DNA from: an uncultured Clostridia bacterium
GTDB lineage: Bacteria > Bacillota > Clostridia > Christensenellales > Borkfalkiaceae
DNA length: 45,088 bases
Direction of reading: 5' to 3'
Assembly: GCA_947175325.1 (NCBI GenBank)
Contig: CAMWME010000011.1
Coordinates: 1-45,088, forward strand
Part shown: positions 2,334-17,920 of the stretch, one piece after another
Layout: each line of letters begins with the position of its first letter
How positions within the stretch are numbered: position 1 is the stretch's first letter
Made by a program: the position numbers and the translations under genes
The notes under the pieces: model-generated
The model's database searches: none
Told to the model about the DNA's origin: nothing
Seen by the model: only the letters and a program-made list of their open reading frames with translations

Positions 2334-2389
2334 CTGTTTGAAATTTAAAATTCATTCATACCGCGCCGAGAAAAAATATATACTTTAAT

Positions 2390-3049
2390 ATGAAGAAAAC
2401 TACTTTTTTCGTTGGTATTATACTTTCGGTGCTGTGCGCCCTTTGCGCGTTGCCCGCTTGCTCTAAACAAGTGAATTACTCAGATTATATTTCTGAAAGC
2501 CGTTCGGACGTTTTCCTTTATCGGGACGACGCGACCGAAATTAAAATTCAGTGTTCCAAAAAGGAACAGCCCTTTTGCGCTGACGGCTACAAGGGCGAAA
2601 TGTGCGACTTGGTAGAAATTTACGTCACACTTGCAAAGAATCCGCAAGTGCTTGAAGTCCAAGTTGAAAATCTCGGCGGCGAAATGAACTATCAAGCGGT
2701 AACGAGGCAGTACTACTTGTCGCTGTCTGCAGCGGCTTTTAATAAAAGCGGGGTCGAAGTTACTTTGACCGCCGACGAAAAGACGGAAACCTACACCGCG
2801 CTTTCGGTTAAAGACGATAACGTAATGAGCTGCGAGAAGGCGGTTGAATGCGTTGCCGAGTACGCAAGCGAGCTGTTTGAAGGGCTGACCTCGAACGGAC
2901 TGTTCGACGGCGAAATCTTCGTTCGACTTTTGTACGACGAGGGGTGCTACTATTACGTGGGCGTGTGCAACAAAGAAAAGCTTGTTACGGCGTTTCTAAT
3001 TGACGGCGAGCGCGGCAAGGTAATTGCCAAAAAGGAAATTCAAGGTTAA
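2390..3049 (+). CDS. Small lipoprotein of unknown function
   Basis: A 219-residue secreted lipoprotein. The N-terminus has a KK charge pair, a hydrophobic core and a lipobox LPAC at residues 22-25, so Cys25 should be diacylated and hold the protein to the outer face of the membrane. The mature part is acidic and mixed alpha/beta and matches no family I can name. No Shine-Dalgarno site precedes the ATG. Instead a TATACT element ends five bases before it (with a TTCATA-like -35, 18-base spacer), so the transcript may be leaderless or nearly so. It converges on hemW across a GC-rich terminator. Confidence 0.78.
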   Translation: MKKTTFFVGIILSVLCALCALPACSKQVNYSDYISESRSDVFLYRDDATEIKIQCSKKEQPFCADGYKGEMCDLVEIYVTLAKNPQVLEVQVENLGGEMNYQAVTRQYYLSLSAAAFNKSGVEVTLTADEKTETYTALSVKDDNVMSCEKAVECVAEYASELFEGLTSNGLFDGEIFVRLLYDEGCYYYVGVCNKEKLVTAFLIDGERGKVIAKKEIQG

Positions 3050-6467: not shown

Positions 6468-7478
6468 TACTACTGCGAGTCTATCCAAAAGATAGTCGTT
6501 TGAAAGTATCGTGCCGCCGCCTATAACCGCAGCAAGCTGCGGCTCTTCGGGCACGTTCACGGGAATGTTCAGCTTTTCTTCGATATACTCCGCAAGCCCG
6601 TCCATTTTAACAGCCCCGCCCGAAAGGTACACGCCGCCGTGCATAACGCCCGACGCCACCTCTGCGGGAAGCTTTGAAAGTACGAGCGCAACGTATTCCA
6701 AAATTTTGTCGATATAAGTCGTAATCACGCCGTAAATCTGCTCCGAATTGACGGCAATAGACGCGGGCGCGCCCGAAGTAATCTCTCTGCCCTCTACTAC
6801 GTTCATTTTATTGTCGTCCGGCAAAAGACTTCCAACGGACGTTTTCAACCTTTCGGCGGTAAGCGCGCCGATTTTGAAGTTGTAGTTTTCGGCAAGCTCG
6901 TCAATTAAATGCACGTCTATGTTCGCACCGCCTAAATTCACCGTCAAGCCGTAGATTATTCCGTCTTGCGACAGCGCGGCAATATTGGTTATCGAGTGCC
7001 CGATATCCAGAACGAACATCGGCGTACTTTCACTTATAGCCACGTTGTGCCCCAAAACTGCGGCAAACGGCGTTACGGTAAAGTAAACGGCCGCCAGCCC
7101 ACATTCTTCGGCTATGCGTAGATATTTTTGCTTTAACTCGGCTTTCGCCCCGCACGGCAGAATGAAAACCGCCTCAACCCGCTTCGCCTTTTTGCGGGTT
7201 ATTTCAATTTTTTCAAGGAAGTACTCGAGTAGTAGTGACGCCAAGTTTTCGTGCACGATATCGCCCTCGAAAACGGGGTTGACGATATGCGTATTCACCG
7301 CCGCTCTGCCCGAAAGGGCACGCGCCTTATCGCCGCACGCCTTGACGGTAACCACCTTTTCACCGCCTTGAAGTCCTTCTTCCACGGCGATGCAAGTGGC
7401 TTCCTTTAAAACCACCCCGCACCCCGGCATATAAATTTTAGTAAATCCCGAACCCATATCTATGGATATTCTTTTCAT
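6462..7478 (-). CDS. Divergent MreB-like actin-family protein
   Basis: A 338-residue actin-fold ATPase of the MreB/Mbl family, whose members form membrane-associated filaments that guide wall synthesis. The family outline is clear: an N-terminal phosphate loop (SIDMGSGFTKIY in place of the usual IDLGTANT), a second phosphate loop DIGHSITNIA (usual DIGGGTTE), GLTVNLGGANIDVHLIDEL, and the C-terminal LSGGAVKMDGLAEYI. Several of these are altered, so it may be a specialised paralogue rather than the main MreB. Its start overlaps the maf stop by four bases (ATGA). The maf-mreB order matches the classic Bacillus arrangement, but mreC, mreD and the min genes are absent. The last codon and stop lie in a repeat shared with the ylmC-like gene. 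Confidence 0.85.
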   Translation of the reverse strand: MKRISIDMGSGFTKIYMPGCGVVLKEATCIAVEEGLQGGEKVVTVKACGDKARALSGRAAVNTHIVNPVFEGDIVHENLASLLLEYFLEKIEITRKKAKRVEAVFILPCGAKAELKQKYLRIAEECGLAAVYFTVTPFAAVLGHNVAISESTPMFVLDIGHSITNIAALSQDGIIYGLTVNLGGANIDVHLIDELAENYNFKIGALTAERLKTSVGSLLPDDNKMNVVEGREITSGAPASIAVNSEQIYGVITTYIDKILEYVALVLSKLPAEVASGVMHGGVYLSGGAVKMDGLAEYIEEKLNIPVNVPEEPQLAAVIGGGTILSNDYLLDRLAVVE

Positions 7479-14237: not shown

Positions 14238-14305
14238 TTTGATTTGTGATTAGCCGGTTTTACAGTAAAGCAATTAAGATACTAGGTTAAGCGGAACGCT
14301 TATTC
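14238..14305 (-). repeat. 68-bp 3'-end repeat, copy 2
   Basis: The same length and order of blocks as the copy at 6400-6467: last codon GAA plus stop, TAAGCG-TTC-CGCTTA hairpin, AGTATCTTAATT, the distal AATCAC block, then a GC-rich terminator hairpin. The central 19 bases are the least conserved, while both ends are nearly identical. Confidence 0.75.
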
Positions 14306-14665
14306 GTATTCATCATAGTTACGCCTATCGTGCCTCGGCGGCGGGCAGTTATTAGGCGGGCAAGGCGGTGGACAATTGTTGGGCGGGCACGGCGGAAAAT
14401 CGGGCTTAGGCGGCTTGGGCGGGCGCTCGTTTTTATCTTCACCGTACTTTACGAGCACGGCGTCCTTGCCTATCTTCACCACTTGCTTTATGGGTATAAA
14501 GACTTCTTGCTTGGAAAACTTAAAGCCCTTACAGCCCGTAACCGTAAAACCGAGAACGTCGCTTTCGGGAAAGGTGAAGCTTAAATCGCACACCTTGCCC
14601 ATATTCTTGCCGTCGTTTAAATTGATAACGTCCTTTTGTTTTAGGGCGGTAAAGTTAACTTCCAT
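14300..14665 (-). CDS. YlmC/YmxH-type PRC-barrel protein with Pro/Cys-rich tail
   Basis: A 121-residue protein. Residues 1-78 form a PRC-barrel domain like the YlmC/YmxH sporulation family (LKQKDVINLNDGKNMGKVCDL, then the beta-rich ESDVLGFTVTGCKGF and EVFIPIKQVVKIGKDAVLVKY). The family is conserved in spore-formers beside sigG or in the ylm cluster, but its role is unclear. The last 40 residues are unusual: a low-complexity tail with CPPNNCPPP repeated twice and four cysteines, suggesting disulfide or metal-linked packing. The gene was probably next to sigG before the cassette at 15.5-17.1 kb intervened. No Shine-Dalgarno site is visible. Confidence 0.82.
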   Translation of the reverse strand: MEVNFTALKQKDVINLNDGKNMGKVCDLSFTFPESDVLGFTVTGCKGFKFSKQEVFIPIKQVVKIGKDAVLVKYGEDKNERPPKPPKPDFPPCPPNNCPPPCPPNNCPPPRHDRRNYDEYE

Positions 14666-14716: not shown

Positions 14717-15289
14717 TTAAATAAGTCCGATTAAGATTGCCGCCGTGCTTGCCTCGTCGGAAGGACGCAAGAACTCGAAAAGCCTATCGAGCCTTAAAGC
14801 GCCGCCCGCCAAGTATTCGCTGAAATTGTCCGCCGTAGGCCCGCCGACCCAACCGATAAGGAAGAATACGAAGAACAAAATAAGAAGCAGTATCAAAAGG
14901 AAAAACACGGCGCCCATAATACGGTTCATAATTTTAATAACTTTGTTTTCGCTTTCGGAAACGGCTTTAATTATTTTAACTACTATAAACCTTAAAAGCC
15001 AAACTACTACGAACAGTATTATATAGTACAGAATAACTTGGACGTTAAGCTTACCGAGGAATTGGCAGAACCAGTTTTCGTTTGCCATAATCGCTTCTTG
15101 GATTTTGTCCAGAAGGGGTTCGCACGTCCCGTAGAACGCCGTGCCGATAAATACGCAAACTACTACGGAAATTATTATACCGAAAATTCCGGTAGTAAAA
15201 AATTTGAAAATTCCTCCGAAACCGAACAGCGCGCCAAGAACCAACCCGCCGAGTATTATTCCGAGAAATATCCAATCAACGACAATCAT
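14717..15289 (-). CDS. CvpA-like integral membrane protein
   Basis: A 190-residue protein with four predicted membrane helices: VVDWIFLGIILGGLVLGALFG at the start, a second near residues 32-52, and two more at residues 85-110 and 125-148. The start and the spacing of the helices resemble the CvpA family (colicin V production, also found in sporulating bacteria), but similarity is only at the level of architecture. It ends in a soluble tail of about 40 residues. It lies between the displaced sigG fragment and the ylmC-like gene with its own terminator. Function unknown. Confidence 0.7.
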   Translation of the reverse strand: MIVVDWIFLGIILGGLVLGALFGFGGIFKFFTTGIFGIIISVVVCVFIGTAFYGTCEPLLDKIQEAIMANENWFCQFLGKLNVQVILYYIILFVVVWLLRFIVVKIIKAVSESENKVIKIMNRIMGAVFFLLILLLILFFVFFLIGWVGGPTADNFSEYLAGGALRLDRLFEFLRPSDEASTAAILIGLI

Positions 15290-15360: not shown

Positions 15361-15388
15361 GGCGCGGCGATTTAAAAATCGCCGCGCC
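15361..15388 (-). terminator. Hairpin behind the sigG 3'-end fragment
   Basis: A 13-bp perfect stem, GGCGCGGCGATTT (15361-15373) with AAATCGCCGCGCC (15376-15388), starts seven bases beyond the fragment's stop codon. It probably was, or is, the terminator of a full sigG transcript, now separated from the gene. Confidence 0.65.
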
Positions 15389-15394
15389 CCTTTT

Positions 15395-15550
15395 CTATGA
15401 TATACAAGCTTTGATTTGTTTTAATGCAGTCTTTTCTAAGCGCGATACTTGCGCTTGGGATATGCCTACCTCGCGGGAAATTTCCGTTTGGGTTTTGCCC
15501 TCGAAGTACCTTAAAAACAGTATCTTTTTCTCTCTGCTATTTAATTTGTA
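15395..15550 (-). pseudogene. Partial sigG copy (3' end only, about 51 codons)
   Basis: This encodes YKLNSREKKILFLRYFEG and continues, identically to the SigG C-terminus, to KQIKACIS and a TAG stop. Just upstream in the same frame is a TGA (15551-15553), so no start or sigma domain 2 is present and the piece cannot be functional. Over the last 46 codons, 14 codons differ from sigG and all 14 are synonymous; the stop differs too (TAG against TAA). The four residues before (KLNS against HLEG) diverge. It lies in the same orientation as sigG, about 1.75 kb further downstream. The pattern means that the fragment and the resident end both come from working sigG genes that had diverged. Confidence 0.9.
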
Positions 15551-15586
15551 TCATTACTTATATCTTTATTATAAACGATTGAAATT

Positions 15587-15847
15587 TTAAGGTTGCTCTT
15601 TATACCAGTACGGTTTTCTTTCAAAGCCAACGTGGTAAACTATGTACTGCGAAACAACTTGATGCTCCCCGATATTTAAAATAAAAAAATTTTTTTCCTG
15701 CGCCACGAGCCTTCCGCCGCGAGACAGAGCGTCGTTAAGGCGCTCCGTCTGTTTTGCTATCGCGGCTTCATCGGGCATTTTTTCAGGATCCGTATTTCCC
15801 ACTACATACCGTATCACAAATTTATTGTCGCTCAACGAGTACGCCAT
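15587..15847 (-). CDS. Small cassette protein of unknown function
   Basis: An 86-residue soluble protein that I do not recognise. It begins with a beta-strand-like KFVIRYVVGNTDP, has a charged helix rich in Glu/Gln/Arg (about residues 26-45), and a C-terminal IGEHQVVSQYIVYHVGFERKP that looks like a compact alpha/beta fold. It contains no membrane segment and no cysteine. It is the third and last gene of the DUF2589 cassette, 18 bases after the second gene, with GAGGGG about 12 bases before its ATG. It may be an adaptor or partner of the two larger proteins, but this rests only on position. Confidence 0.72.
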   Translation of the reverse strand: MAYSLSDNKFVIRYVVGNTDPEKMPDEAAIAKQTERLNDALSRGGRLVAQEKNFFILNIGEHQVVSQYIVYHVGFERKPYWYKEQP

Positions 15848-15865
15848 TATACGCCTTTACCCCTC

Positions 15866-16492
15866 TTACTTCGCATCCTTTTCCGCTTGCTTGTTTTTAG
15901 CAACCGACGAAGGCGCAACCGCACTGGATATAATGTCGAGCATACGCATAAGACCTTCGGGGGTCTTTTGCTGACTTGCGTGCACTTCGACGTGATACTT
16001 GGCGGAATTATCGCTCGACCTCGTATTCTTTTCATGACAAGCAATCGAGCCCTTAATTTTTACGTCCATTTTGAAAGGTCCTACCTTTAATCCGGCGCTT
16101 GCATCAATCGAACCGTTTTTGTCGCTTGAACTTTCAGACGAAGTAGACGATTTCACTTCCATATCGAAAGTTATGTCGACCTTGTCTATGGAAAGTGCGG
16201 GGACGTTTACGATTGCAAGCAAAGGCACTTCCATGTTGACCGTTTCGCTTGCCGCCTTTTCGGGGTCGTTGCTTTCAGCCGCACGCGAAAACGAGAAGTT
16301 TGCCGTGCGTACACGCCTAGTCGCACTGCCCTCTTCGGGTTCGCACAGTCCCACGGATTCTATGAAATCCAGCGTCGAGCGCGCAAGCATCGTCTGGGCG
16401 TTGCACGCGGCGCTTAAAGGACCGCCTATCAACGCAGCCATATCAAGCCCGTTGAATTGATTGGAAATTGAAACTAATTCGGTATTTGCCAT
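15866..16492 (-). CDS. DUF2589-type protein A
   Basis: A 208-residue protein of the DUF2589 type. Residues 1-48 are a helical N-terminus with GLDMAALIGGPLSAACNAQ, then VRTANFSFSRA and the family core VPLLAIVNVPALSIDKVDI followed by TFDMEVKSS. A Ser/Asp-rich loop (about residues 117-130) leads to further beta strands and the C-terminal KTPEGLMRMLDIISSAV. It has no signal peptide or membrane helix. It shares both the core and the tail motif with the next protein, so the two are paralogues. AGGAGG eight bases before the ATG gives strong translation. The family has no established function. It sits in the cassette between the two sigG 3' ends. Confidence 0.8.
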   Translation of the reverse strand: MANTELVSISNQFNGLDMAALIGGPLSAACNAQTMLARSTLDFIESVGLCEPEEGSATRRVRTANFSFSRAAESNDPEKAASETVNMEVPLLAIVNVPALSIDKVDITFDMEVKSSTSSESSSDKNGSIDASAGLKVGPFKMDVKIKGSIACHEKNTRSSDNSAKYHVEVHASQQKTPEGLMRMLDIISSAVAPSSVAKNKQAEKDAK

Positions 16493-16507
16493 TTATTTTT
16501 CCTCCTT

Positions 16508-16993
16508 TTACGGCAATATTTTTATCATTTCATCGCGGATTTTCATAACCCCTTCGGGGGGCTCGTCCGACGTAAATTTTAGAACTATGTTGGCGTAACC
16601 TTCGTTATCGCGTTTTTTATACTCGGGAATAAATCCCAGCACGCCGTCCGTTTCCGAGTTGTTCGCTTTTGCAGTCATTAAATTGTTTGAAAGCTTACTA
16701 TGACTTAGCTTAACGTTTGCAGAAAGCCTAACTTTAAAATCTACGTTTATCTCAGCAAGTTTTAAAGAATTTACGGGTACTATGCTTATAAGCGGCACGT
16801 CCATTTCCCTATACTGAGGAACGCCGCAATCGTCAAAATAAGGCATCTGCATTGTAAGACAGCGCGGCTTACCGTCGGCGTCAAAGTAAGCTTGCAAAGA
16901 TTCTATGTGCTGCTGTTCCGCCATGTTGTTAACGGAAATAAACGCTTGTTGTATAGAACCTATCAAATCTTCGAATTTTTCAACCTTTGCCAT
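16508..16993 (-). CDS. DUF2589-type protein B
   Basis: A 161-residue, divergent paralogue of the preceding DUF2589-type protein. It has the same order: helical N-terminus (FEDLIGSIQQAFISVNNMAE), the strand EMDVPLISIVPVNSLKLAEI followed by NVDFKVRLS, and the tail EPPEGVMKIRDEMIKILP. It lacks the Ser-rich loop. It is soluble by appearance and is the first gene of the cassette, with GAGGTG before the ATG and a TATAAT about 19 bases further up. Two related but unequal subunits side by side suggest a heteromeric assembly, which is an inference. Confidence 0.75.
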   Translation of the reverse strand: MAKVEKFEDLIGSIQQAFISVNNMAEQQHIESLQAYFDADGKPRCLTMQMPYFDDCGVPQYREMDVPLISIVPVNSLKLAEINVDFKVRLSANVKLSHSKLSNNLMTAKANNSETDGVLGFIPEYKKRDNEGYANIVLKFTSDEPPEGVMKIRDEMIKILP

Positions 16994-17011
16994 TTTTCAC
17001 CTCTTGTTTGC

Positions 17012-17053
17012 ATTATACACCGCGCCGCCGCAGTGCGCTAAACTGCGGCGGCG
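17012..17053 (-). promoter_or_regulatory. Cassette promoter region with a 12-bp GC hairpin
   Basis: TATAAT (17012-17017, minus strand) stands 19 bases before the first cassette ATG, but there is no -35 hexamer at 16-18 bases. Instead the region is a perfect 12-bp inverted repeat, CGCCGCCGCAGT (17023-17034) and ACTGCGGCGGCG (17042-17053). A regulator site or an attenuating hairpin are both possible; TTGACA at 17073-17078 is too far away to be its -35. Confidence 0.4.
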
Positions 17054-17117
17054 TTCCCCGCGCCGCAAGAATTGTCAAGTAATTTTTATAATATTTTTTT
17101 AATTTAAATGCGAAACA

Positions 17118-17147
17118 AAAAAGCGAACGGTTAACCGTTCGCTTTTT
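17118..17147 (-). terminator. sigG terminator
   Basis: AAGCGAACGG and CCGTTCGCTT form a 10-bp stem with a TTAA loop, followed on the minus strand by TTTTTT, two bases after the sigG stop. Perfect palindrome from 17118 to 17147. Confidence 0.85.
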
Positions 17148-17149
17148 AT

Positions 17150-17920
17150 TTACGATATACAAGCTTTGATTTGTTTTAGTGCTGTTTTCTCTAAGCGCGA
17201 TACTTGCGCTTGGGAGATGCCTACCTCGCGGGAAATTTCCGTTTGGGTTTTTCCCTCGAAATAGCGAAGGAAAAGTATCTTTTTTTCCCTGCCTTCTAGG
17301 TGGTTAATCGCTTCGTACAGCGCCGCCTTTTCCGTCCACACCTCGTCGTTGTTCTTTTCGTCGAATATCTGGTCCATCAAAAGCAGCGTGTCGCCCGCTT
17401 TGTTGAACACCGGCTCGTACAAGGAAACTGGGTCGGAAATTGCGTCCAGCGCGTAGGCAACCTCGGAAACGGCAATGTGCATTTCGGAAGCTATCTTGTC
17501 GTAGGTTACGTCCTCGTCGTCGACTTCAAGCTTCTCGCGCACCTTCAAAATTTGGTACGCCGTGTCGCGTATAGACCTTGAAACACGCAAACTGTTGCCG
17601 TCCCGCAAATACCTTTTAATCTCGCCCAAAATCATAGGCACTGCGTAGGTGGAAAACTTAACGCCCACCGATAAATCAAAGTTGTCAATAGCCTTTATAA
17701 GCCCCACGCAGCCCGCTTGGAACACGTCGTCGGCGTTGGCTTTCTTTGCCCAAAATCTTCTTACAAGCGATAAGACGAGGCGCATATTCCCGACGATAAA
17801 CCGCTCACGCGCGCGCTCGTCGCCCGCCTTCAATTTTATCATAAGTTCTTCTTGCTCTTTTGCGGACAAAAGGGGCAAGCCCGAAGTGTCGACTCCGCAG
17901 ATAACGACTTTTTGCAACAT
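17150..17920 (-). CDS. sigG: Late forespore sigma factor SigG
   Basis: A 256-residue sporulation sigma-70 family factor. The start VVICGVDTSGLPLL is the conserved SigG N-terminus (binding site for anti-sigma SpoIIAB). Region 2 has VGNMRLVLSLVRRF, DDVFQAGCVGLIKAIDNFDL and VKFSTYAVPMILGEIKRYLRD. Region 4 ends in KTQTEISREVGISQAQVSRLEK. SigG drives late forespore genes such as the germination receptors and small acid-soluble proteins. GGAGG precedes the ATG. The gene follows sigE by 55 bases, the conserved spoIIGA-sigE-sigG order. Its last 46 codons are repeated at 15395-15535 beyond an inserted cassette, so its 3' end may be recombinant. Confidence 0.97.
   Translation of the reverse strand: MLQKVVICGVDTSGLPLLSAKEQEELMIKLKAGDERARERFIVGNMRLVLSLVRRFWAKKANADDVFQAGCVGLIKAIDNFDLSVGVKFSTYAVPMILGEIKRYLRDGNSLRVSRSIRDTAYQILKVREKLEVDDEDVTYDKIASEMHIAVSEVAYALDAISDPVSLYEPVFNKAGDTLLLMDQIFDEKNNDEVWTEKAALYEAINHLEGREKKILFLRYFEGKTQTEISREVGISQAQVSRLEKTALKQIKACIS

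Follow-up and report, generated by a model that had tools for sequence, protein, structure and literature searches.

A three-gene operon between two copies of the sigG 3' end in an uncultured Clostridia bacterium

In the genome of an uncultured Clostridia bacterium of the family Borkfalkiaceae (assembly GCA_947175325.1; 1.54 Mb in 25 contigs), we analyzed a stretch of 45,088 nucleotides (contig CAMWME010000011.1, here C11; hereafter the window) in which a cassette of three genes, named D1, D2 and o86, lies behind the sporulation sigma gene sigG. Along the direction of transcription, the gene order is spoIIGA-like, sigE-like, sigG, cassette, sigG fragment, CvpA-like and ylmC-like, where the names of the two genes 5' of sigG are our assumption; sigG and all three open reading frames (ORFs) of the cassette are encoded on the minus strand. 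The original prediction, made from the sequence of the window, placed the three genes between the intact sigG 3' end and a second copy of this end in the same direction. This arrangement was confirmed by a direct repeat of 147 nt (15391-15537 and 17146-17292), whose copies are 88% identical and lie 1755 nt apart from start to start. Among the 20 largest of 27 repeat families obtained from the 7 kb searched, the direct repeat ranking second in length comprises 31 nt at 74% identity.

The two copies can be aligned in frame, and 15 of 47 codons (those between codon 13 of the aligned block, inclusive, and the stop) differ between them, all synonymously; one further difference (G/S) is located at the edge of the homology. 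Stop codons are found just upstream of the fragment and are followed by no in-frame ATG, GTG or TTG, so that the fragment does not represent an ordinary gene. Since a free fragment would not evolve by synonymous changes only, both copies were most likely functional sigG ends until recently, having diverged in separate functional sigG genes, and their duplication is most likely young.

The two closest relatives, G009 and G067, represent empty sites. Here, sigG is followed by a gap of 118 nt (G009) or 96 nt (G067), a CvpA-like gene (92% and 93% identical to that of the window, respectively) and the ylmC-like gene, and there is one sigG 3' end in each, as had been anticipated for empty sites. The sigG protein of the window is 100% identical to that of G009 and 97% identical to that of G067 over the part present. 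Removing the insert would place sigG beside its old terminator, the CvpA-like and the ylmC-like gene, which is the order foreseen in the original prediction and seen in both relatives; the arrangement of the window is not shared by relatives, and no empty site contains a fragment. Compared to G009, the fragment, its terminator, the intergenic DNA and the CvpA-like gene form a single block of 88.4% identity over 1121 nt, and the alignment of intact sigG ends at about the gene end. The fragment and the DNA following it are therefore native, and the cassette with the DNA before it constitutes the insert.

Next, we compared the DNA behind the two ends with 66 sigG loci for which downstream DNA was available. 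For the 100 nt behind the fragment, the highest score was that of G009 (124), followed by G067 (48). The 70 nt behind intact sigG match G024 (75), G021 (64) and G040 (56) best, with scores of 22 for G009 and 17 for G067. The terminator behind sigG in G024 is 98% identical to that of the window over 41 nt, and the match runs 10 nt past the hairpin. Because the terminator behind intact sigG is of the type found in G024, G021 and G040, it comes from elsewhere, most simply together with the cassette. The native flank of the fragment and the non-local terminator behind intact sigG agree with the earlier proposal of a replacement end supplied by the newcomer and a displaced old end.

Based on these comparisons, we consider it probable that a foreign operon together with a sigG end entered by recombination in the sigG 3' end of the recipient and displaced the old end. 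D1-D2-o86 would have entered one lineage of the genus on DNA that also carried the sigG end and terminator of another strain or species. Recombination inside the sigG 3' end would have joined the recipient sigG to the foreign end, followed by the operon, and the recipient's own end and terminator would have been pushed downstream, where this terminator could now end the cassette transcript. The rare and patchy occurrence of the cassette, as well as its unrelated place in G041, speak for this reading. We infer a joint arrival of foreign end and cassette, and an exchange by homologous (RecA-type) recombination rather than through an integrase, most simply as one crossover with a circle of about 1.75 kb or more. 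The features of the locus are listed in Table 1.

Table 1. Features of the sigG locus in the window and of the split promoter in the window and at other cassette loci.
Feature	Position	Strand	Remark
Intact sigG	17150..17920	-	ORF intact, 256 aa
Terminator behind intact sigG	17117..17147	-	type found directly behind sigG in G024, G021, G040
Split sigma-70 promoter (putative)	17012..17078	-	upstream of D1
-35 element TTGACA	17073-17078	-	
Spacer copy S1	17056-17072	-	
Inverted copy S'	17042-17053	-	
Spacer copy S2	17018-17034	-	
-10 element TATAAT	17012-17017	-	
D1	16508..16993	-	161 aa, DUF2589
D2	15866..16492	-	208 aa, DUF2589
o86	15587..15847	-	86 aa, conserved family; no match in Pfam, NCBIfam or PADLOC
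Displaced native sigG 3' end	15395..15538	-	48 codons, without in-frame start
Old sigG terminator	15361..15388	-	same type as in G009; now 3' of the cassette
CvpA-like gene	14717..15289	-	Colicin_V match below Pfam cut-off; native neighbour
ylmC-like PRC-barrel gene	14300..14665	-	native neighbour
Split promoter, L119 (G041)	6928-7002		
Split promoter, L160 (G173)	upstream of 7481	-	
Split promoter, L161 (G197)	2356-2418		

The positions at which the copies differ provide some indication of where the exchange may have taken place. Over the last 144 nt, there are 18 differing sites. Left of about nt 669 of the gene, 11 of 42 nt differ; at six of these sites, intact sigG shows the state of G067 and not that of G009, and at five of the six the fragment shows the G009 state. 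The middle 62 nt contain one difference between the copies and one common state (position 89) that is found in none of 67 relatives. In the right part, with six differing sites, every site of the fragment shows the G009 or G067 state; intact sigG does so at four, the remaining two being rare states present in 3-4% of the relatives. This pattern resembles a crossover or conversion in the middle of the sigG end, a resemblance that is not strong on its own. The extent of divergence in the left parts (11 of 42 nt) is better accounted for by a reciprocal crossover than by simple duplication. The last 51 nt of intact sigG are weakly unlike those of the closest relatives (42 nt identical to G009, 40 to G067), and the very end of the gene may thus be foreign.

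Several observations weigh against the history considered probable above. The clustering of the differences reaches p = 0.036 compared to random placement, and only two of the six right-side sites are rare in intact sigG, which makes the coding sequence alone weak evidence of a foreign end; the case for such an end is carried mostly by the terminator. In a tree of the last 144 nt including the 30 nearest of the 67 relatives, the intact end and the fragment are joined at 50% support, beside G009, and therefore a very close donor or a later gene conversion is possible. Along its length, sigG is a mosaic of G009- and G067-like states, so that the new end could date from another time than the cassette. 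Furthermore, a single assembly of 25 contigs is the only source of the locus, and the 35-nt word that both sigG ends contain could conceal a chimeric assembly at the sigG joint, while no word longer than 9 nt is common to sigG and the cassette tail. Finally, a search with a 171-nt stretch around the sigG end and downstream against 398 genomes of the family gave no donor, with terminator matches and short, chance-like matches only.

Other events could have produced a similar layout, and they differ in how well they account for the two joints and for the divergence of the copies. In homology-facilitated illegitimate recombination, linear DNA would have recombined in sigG at one end and been joined without homology at the other. 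The left side within sigG fits this scheme, and the cassette tail has no word longer than 9 nt in common with sigG, so that the right joint would be one without homology. According to PMC5361080, the same outcome, a constant 5' part with a displaced old 3' part, is described for type VI secretion system (T6SS) loci of Vibrio cholerae and for Rhs genes, where a foreign module is proposed to join via homology to a constant gene and the old 3' part stays downstream. In contrast to these loci, the role of the constant gene is taken in our case by a conserved sporulation sigma gene with an unaltered protein, and the displaced part lacks a start codon. Because the fragment reaches past the likely crossover on its 5' side, where its sequence is not that of intact sigG, a second template or a later exchange in sigG would be needed, and we regard this route as unlikely. 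If the sigG end had first been duplicated in tandem within this genome and the cassette had then inserted between the two copies, this would explain the state shared at position 89 and the joining of the copies in the tree. However, a free fragment would gather amino-acid changes, which none of the 15 changed codons shows, and the two terminators are of different types; this order of events appears very improbable.

Alternatively, the cassette could be a relic resembling a cis-mobilizable element (CIME), left by a site-specific element that used the sigG 3' end as attachment site and lost its integrase. A replacement end and a displaced end in the same direction are what such elements leave, and relics with both ends retained but no integration genes are described in PMC5704250. 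The insert resembles these CIMEs and gene-3'-end relics in carrying a copy of the target end at each border, in lacking integration genes and in having empty sites. It differs from them in its size of only 1.75 kb and in the lack of recurrent use, with no second case at sigG in the 76 genomes with a sigG end. The two copies also differ on both sides of their common middle, which speaks against such an origin. A possible agent was considered in G024, whose terminator behind sigG is nearly identical to that of the window and which encodes a 294-aa tyrosine recombinase about 0.7 kb behind sigG, at a contig end. Relatives of this recombinase in G000, G024, G067, G077 and G049 are likewise located at contig ends, and most of those with upstream DNA have their own AT-rich motif there, AATAATTN{2,5}AGTTATT, which is absent from the window. 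The recombinase of G024 is therefore not supported as the agent and looks like part of a different system. Overall, we judge a CIME-like origin to be unlikely. Of the two options considered in the original prediction, homologous-type recombination stands as the best mechanism, and the loss of an integrase is reduced to a lesser rival.

In order to assess whether sigG serves as an integration site, as had been suggested, 93 genomes of the genus were searched with the last 56 sigG residues. Some match was obtained in 85 (E 1e-8), and 76, including the window, contained a sigG-type end (at least 72% identity, G048 partial; counted by reading the match rows). Two sigG ends were found only in the window (1/76), while contig ends may hide others. 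Across the sigG loci of 67 relatives, the CvpA-like gene was located within 300 nt in seven and at a distance of 661 to 3047 nt in 14; in the remaining 46, the covered stretch of that strand lacked a CvpA-like gene. None of the 14 loci with a large gap contained a sigG fragment. ORFs behind sigG were listed for 28 loci, covering seven of the 14, and in all seven the gap contains other ORFs. The place behind sigG seems to take up genes, and the fragment is unique in this sample. Neither the ORF list nor profile matches revealed an integrase in the interval between the sigG ends of the window, in agreement with the earlier remark that no integrase or transposase is visible, and no report of sigG as an integration site was found in the literature searched. 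A site-specific, recurrently used integration site is thus not upheld: the term claims too much, and a one-off recombination via sigG homology is more economical.

Among the four recombinase loci with upstream DNA, the AT-rich motif was present in three (G000 C14, G024 C4 and G024 C10), with a variant in the fourth (G077). These loci (L171 (G000:C14) 1-1000, L120, L172 and L174), together with a second copy of the motif at G000 C25:4810, may mark a variable or invertible locus.

Elements that interrupt sporulation genes, such as skin in sigK, SP-beta in spsM and gin in gerE, likewise consist of an insert at a sporulation gene. Unlike these, the insert in the window leaves sigG intact, requires no excision and contains no recombinase, and it does not belong to this group.

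All three genes of the cassette were compared with protein family databases. D2 (157.5 bits, 4.3e-46) and D1 (85.2 bits, 7.7e-24) exceed the gathering score of DUF2589 (PF11655; cut-off 23) and belong to this family. No match was obtained for o86 in Pfam (DUF2589 included), NCBIfam or PADLOC, and in PHROGs only at E 0.1. The earlier description as a three-gene DUF2589 cassette therefore holds for the number of genes, and for the family in two of them. PADLOC defence families gave no match to D1, D2 or o86 at E 0.1, and D2 and o86 have no sequence relative in PDB at E 1. The predicted model of o86 shows a beta-alpha-beta-beta arrangement with a predicted local distance difference test (pLDDT) score of 86; a functional assignment of D2 by its fold was abandoned, as its model reached a pLDDT of 52.8.

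The cassette was detected in five of the 398 family genomes (window included; E 1e-25), and G041, G173, G197 and G224 carry D1-D2-o86 in the same order, with D2 being 72%, 74%, 65% and 65% identical, respectively. Within the genus, nine more of the 93 genomes showed distant partial matches (23-35% identity) in longer proteins. Samples of the order and phylum yielded the window only (1/395 and 1/398). A pattern-based scan of named genomes revealed 36 relatives of D2, in genomes which we take from their titles to be Proteobacteria in the older sense, and a relative of o86 was found near D2 in 35 of the 36; alignments were built from the window and 25 of the 36 loci for D2, and, for o86, from the window and 19 of the 35 loci in which it was matched. 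These results indicate a rare conserved operon with a patchy distribution in Clostridia and Proteobacteria.

Around the four other clostridial cassettes, sigG was not seen in ORF lists inspected by eye, the output of the sigG query having printed cassette matches only. In G041, the cassette is flanked by genes of the Gabija type (GajA, GajB) on one side and by a large serine recombinase on the other. The ~8.3 kb holding these genes is bordered at each end by collagen-like sequence (whole region, L119 2668-11854; downstream, a BclA_C match below the Pfam cut-off), and the G041 copy therefore looks like cargo of an element splitting a collagen-like gene. In G173, an Exo_endo_phos gene starts directly after the o86 stop (L160 5391-6134; CdtB match below cut-off). 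The neighbours of the Proteobacterial cassette were listed in seven of the 36 loci: in four, a gene ~130 to 1,600 nt behind the cassette matches a phage lysozyme, chitinase-type or muramidase family, and in a fifth, a 102-aa gene behind the cassette has no match. In the window, this slot is empty. As a working guess, D1-D2-o86 is a small conserved module travelling with varying partners.

Three further leads were rejected. The G197 cassette is located between direct repeats of ~290 nt (L161 1943-2234 and 3875-4122), which at first sight suggest a parallel duplication; this repeat is dispersed, with 46 matches in G197, 51 in G224 and none in G173, and hence provides no parallel. A prophage origin gained no ground, as a D2 scan of viral_contigs returned no relative and the cassette proteins matched nothing in PHROGs better than E 0.05. 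The base composition of the cassette (44.4% G+C compared to 47.5% for the window) is not telling.

Upstream of D1, all four clostridial cassettes with upstream DNA carry what appears to be a split promoter. In the window, G041, G173 and G197, the distance from TTGACA to TATAAT (or TACGAT, TACAAT) is 55, 63, 58 and 51 nt, respectively, and the first and last 17 nt between the elements are direct copies of each other, matching at 12, 17, 11 and 11 of 17 positions (shuffle p = 0.0003, 0 of 20,000, 0.0003 and 0.001). When repeat lengths from 10 to 30 were scored, 17 was best in each of the four. In all of them, an inverted copy lies between the two direct spacer copies; it pairs with the copy by the -10 element in the window, G041 and G173, and with that by the -35 element in G197. 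Since the spacer sequences differ among the loci and the S-S'-S layout is kept, the structure is what is conserved. In G224, the contig starts one base before the last spacer copy, as if the assembly broke at the hairpin (L162, G224:C8, 1-46).

Scanning 82 genus and family stretches (812,279 bases, with at least one stretch, L060, which lies inside L120, counted twice), we found 374 pairs of TTGACA and -10-like elements 40-75 nt apart; with a threshold set after the four cases had been seen, five showed such a repeat, namely the four cassettes and one A-rich stretch. At the Proteobacterial operons, none of 434 candidate pairs in 197,543 bases did so, the form being absent in both scans, and the split promoter is therefore not general to the family. 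Judged by titles and the beginnings of abstracts, no precedent of the S-S'-S promoter form was found in the literature.

Collapse of the spacer copies would restore a 17-bp spacer, and the split promoter has the appearance of a putative on/off switch. Two readings suggest themselves: the promoter could stay silent until its spacing is brought to 17 bp by slippage or by extrusion of the hairpin, or the structure could be an operator. More speculatively, D1-D2-o86 might carry a self-made switch that is off at 51-63 bp and turned on by hairpin extrusion or by slippage to one spacer, with template switching able to remake the triple, and the operon, lacking its own integrase, might spread by making use of host gene ends or of passing elements; we advance this combined proposal tentatively, as a possibility that is more doubtful than not. 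An extruded hairpin as the active form is disfavoured by the predicted fold of the window copy, in which more than 17 nt remain unpaired with the long stem, on its outside, and by the cruciform-regulated promoter of Horwitz and Loeb (1988), where, as recounted in PMC6060812, the cruciform repressed transcription. That promoter resembles the present one in having an extrudable inverted repeat at the promoter; here, by contrast, the inverted repeat duplicates the promoter spacer and is accompanied by an in-register direct copy, at four natural loci.

If read as proposed, the locus would represent a recent natural example of a foreign operon added behind a developmental gene whose protein remained unchanged, and in which the native and non-local ends can both still be recognised. 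In addition, it draws attention to a conserved, uncharacterised operon with a patchy distribution across Clostridia and Proteobacteria, and to a type of promoter that preserves its structure and not its sequence. If this promoter acts as a switch, it would offer a simple way to control foreign genes.

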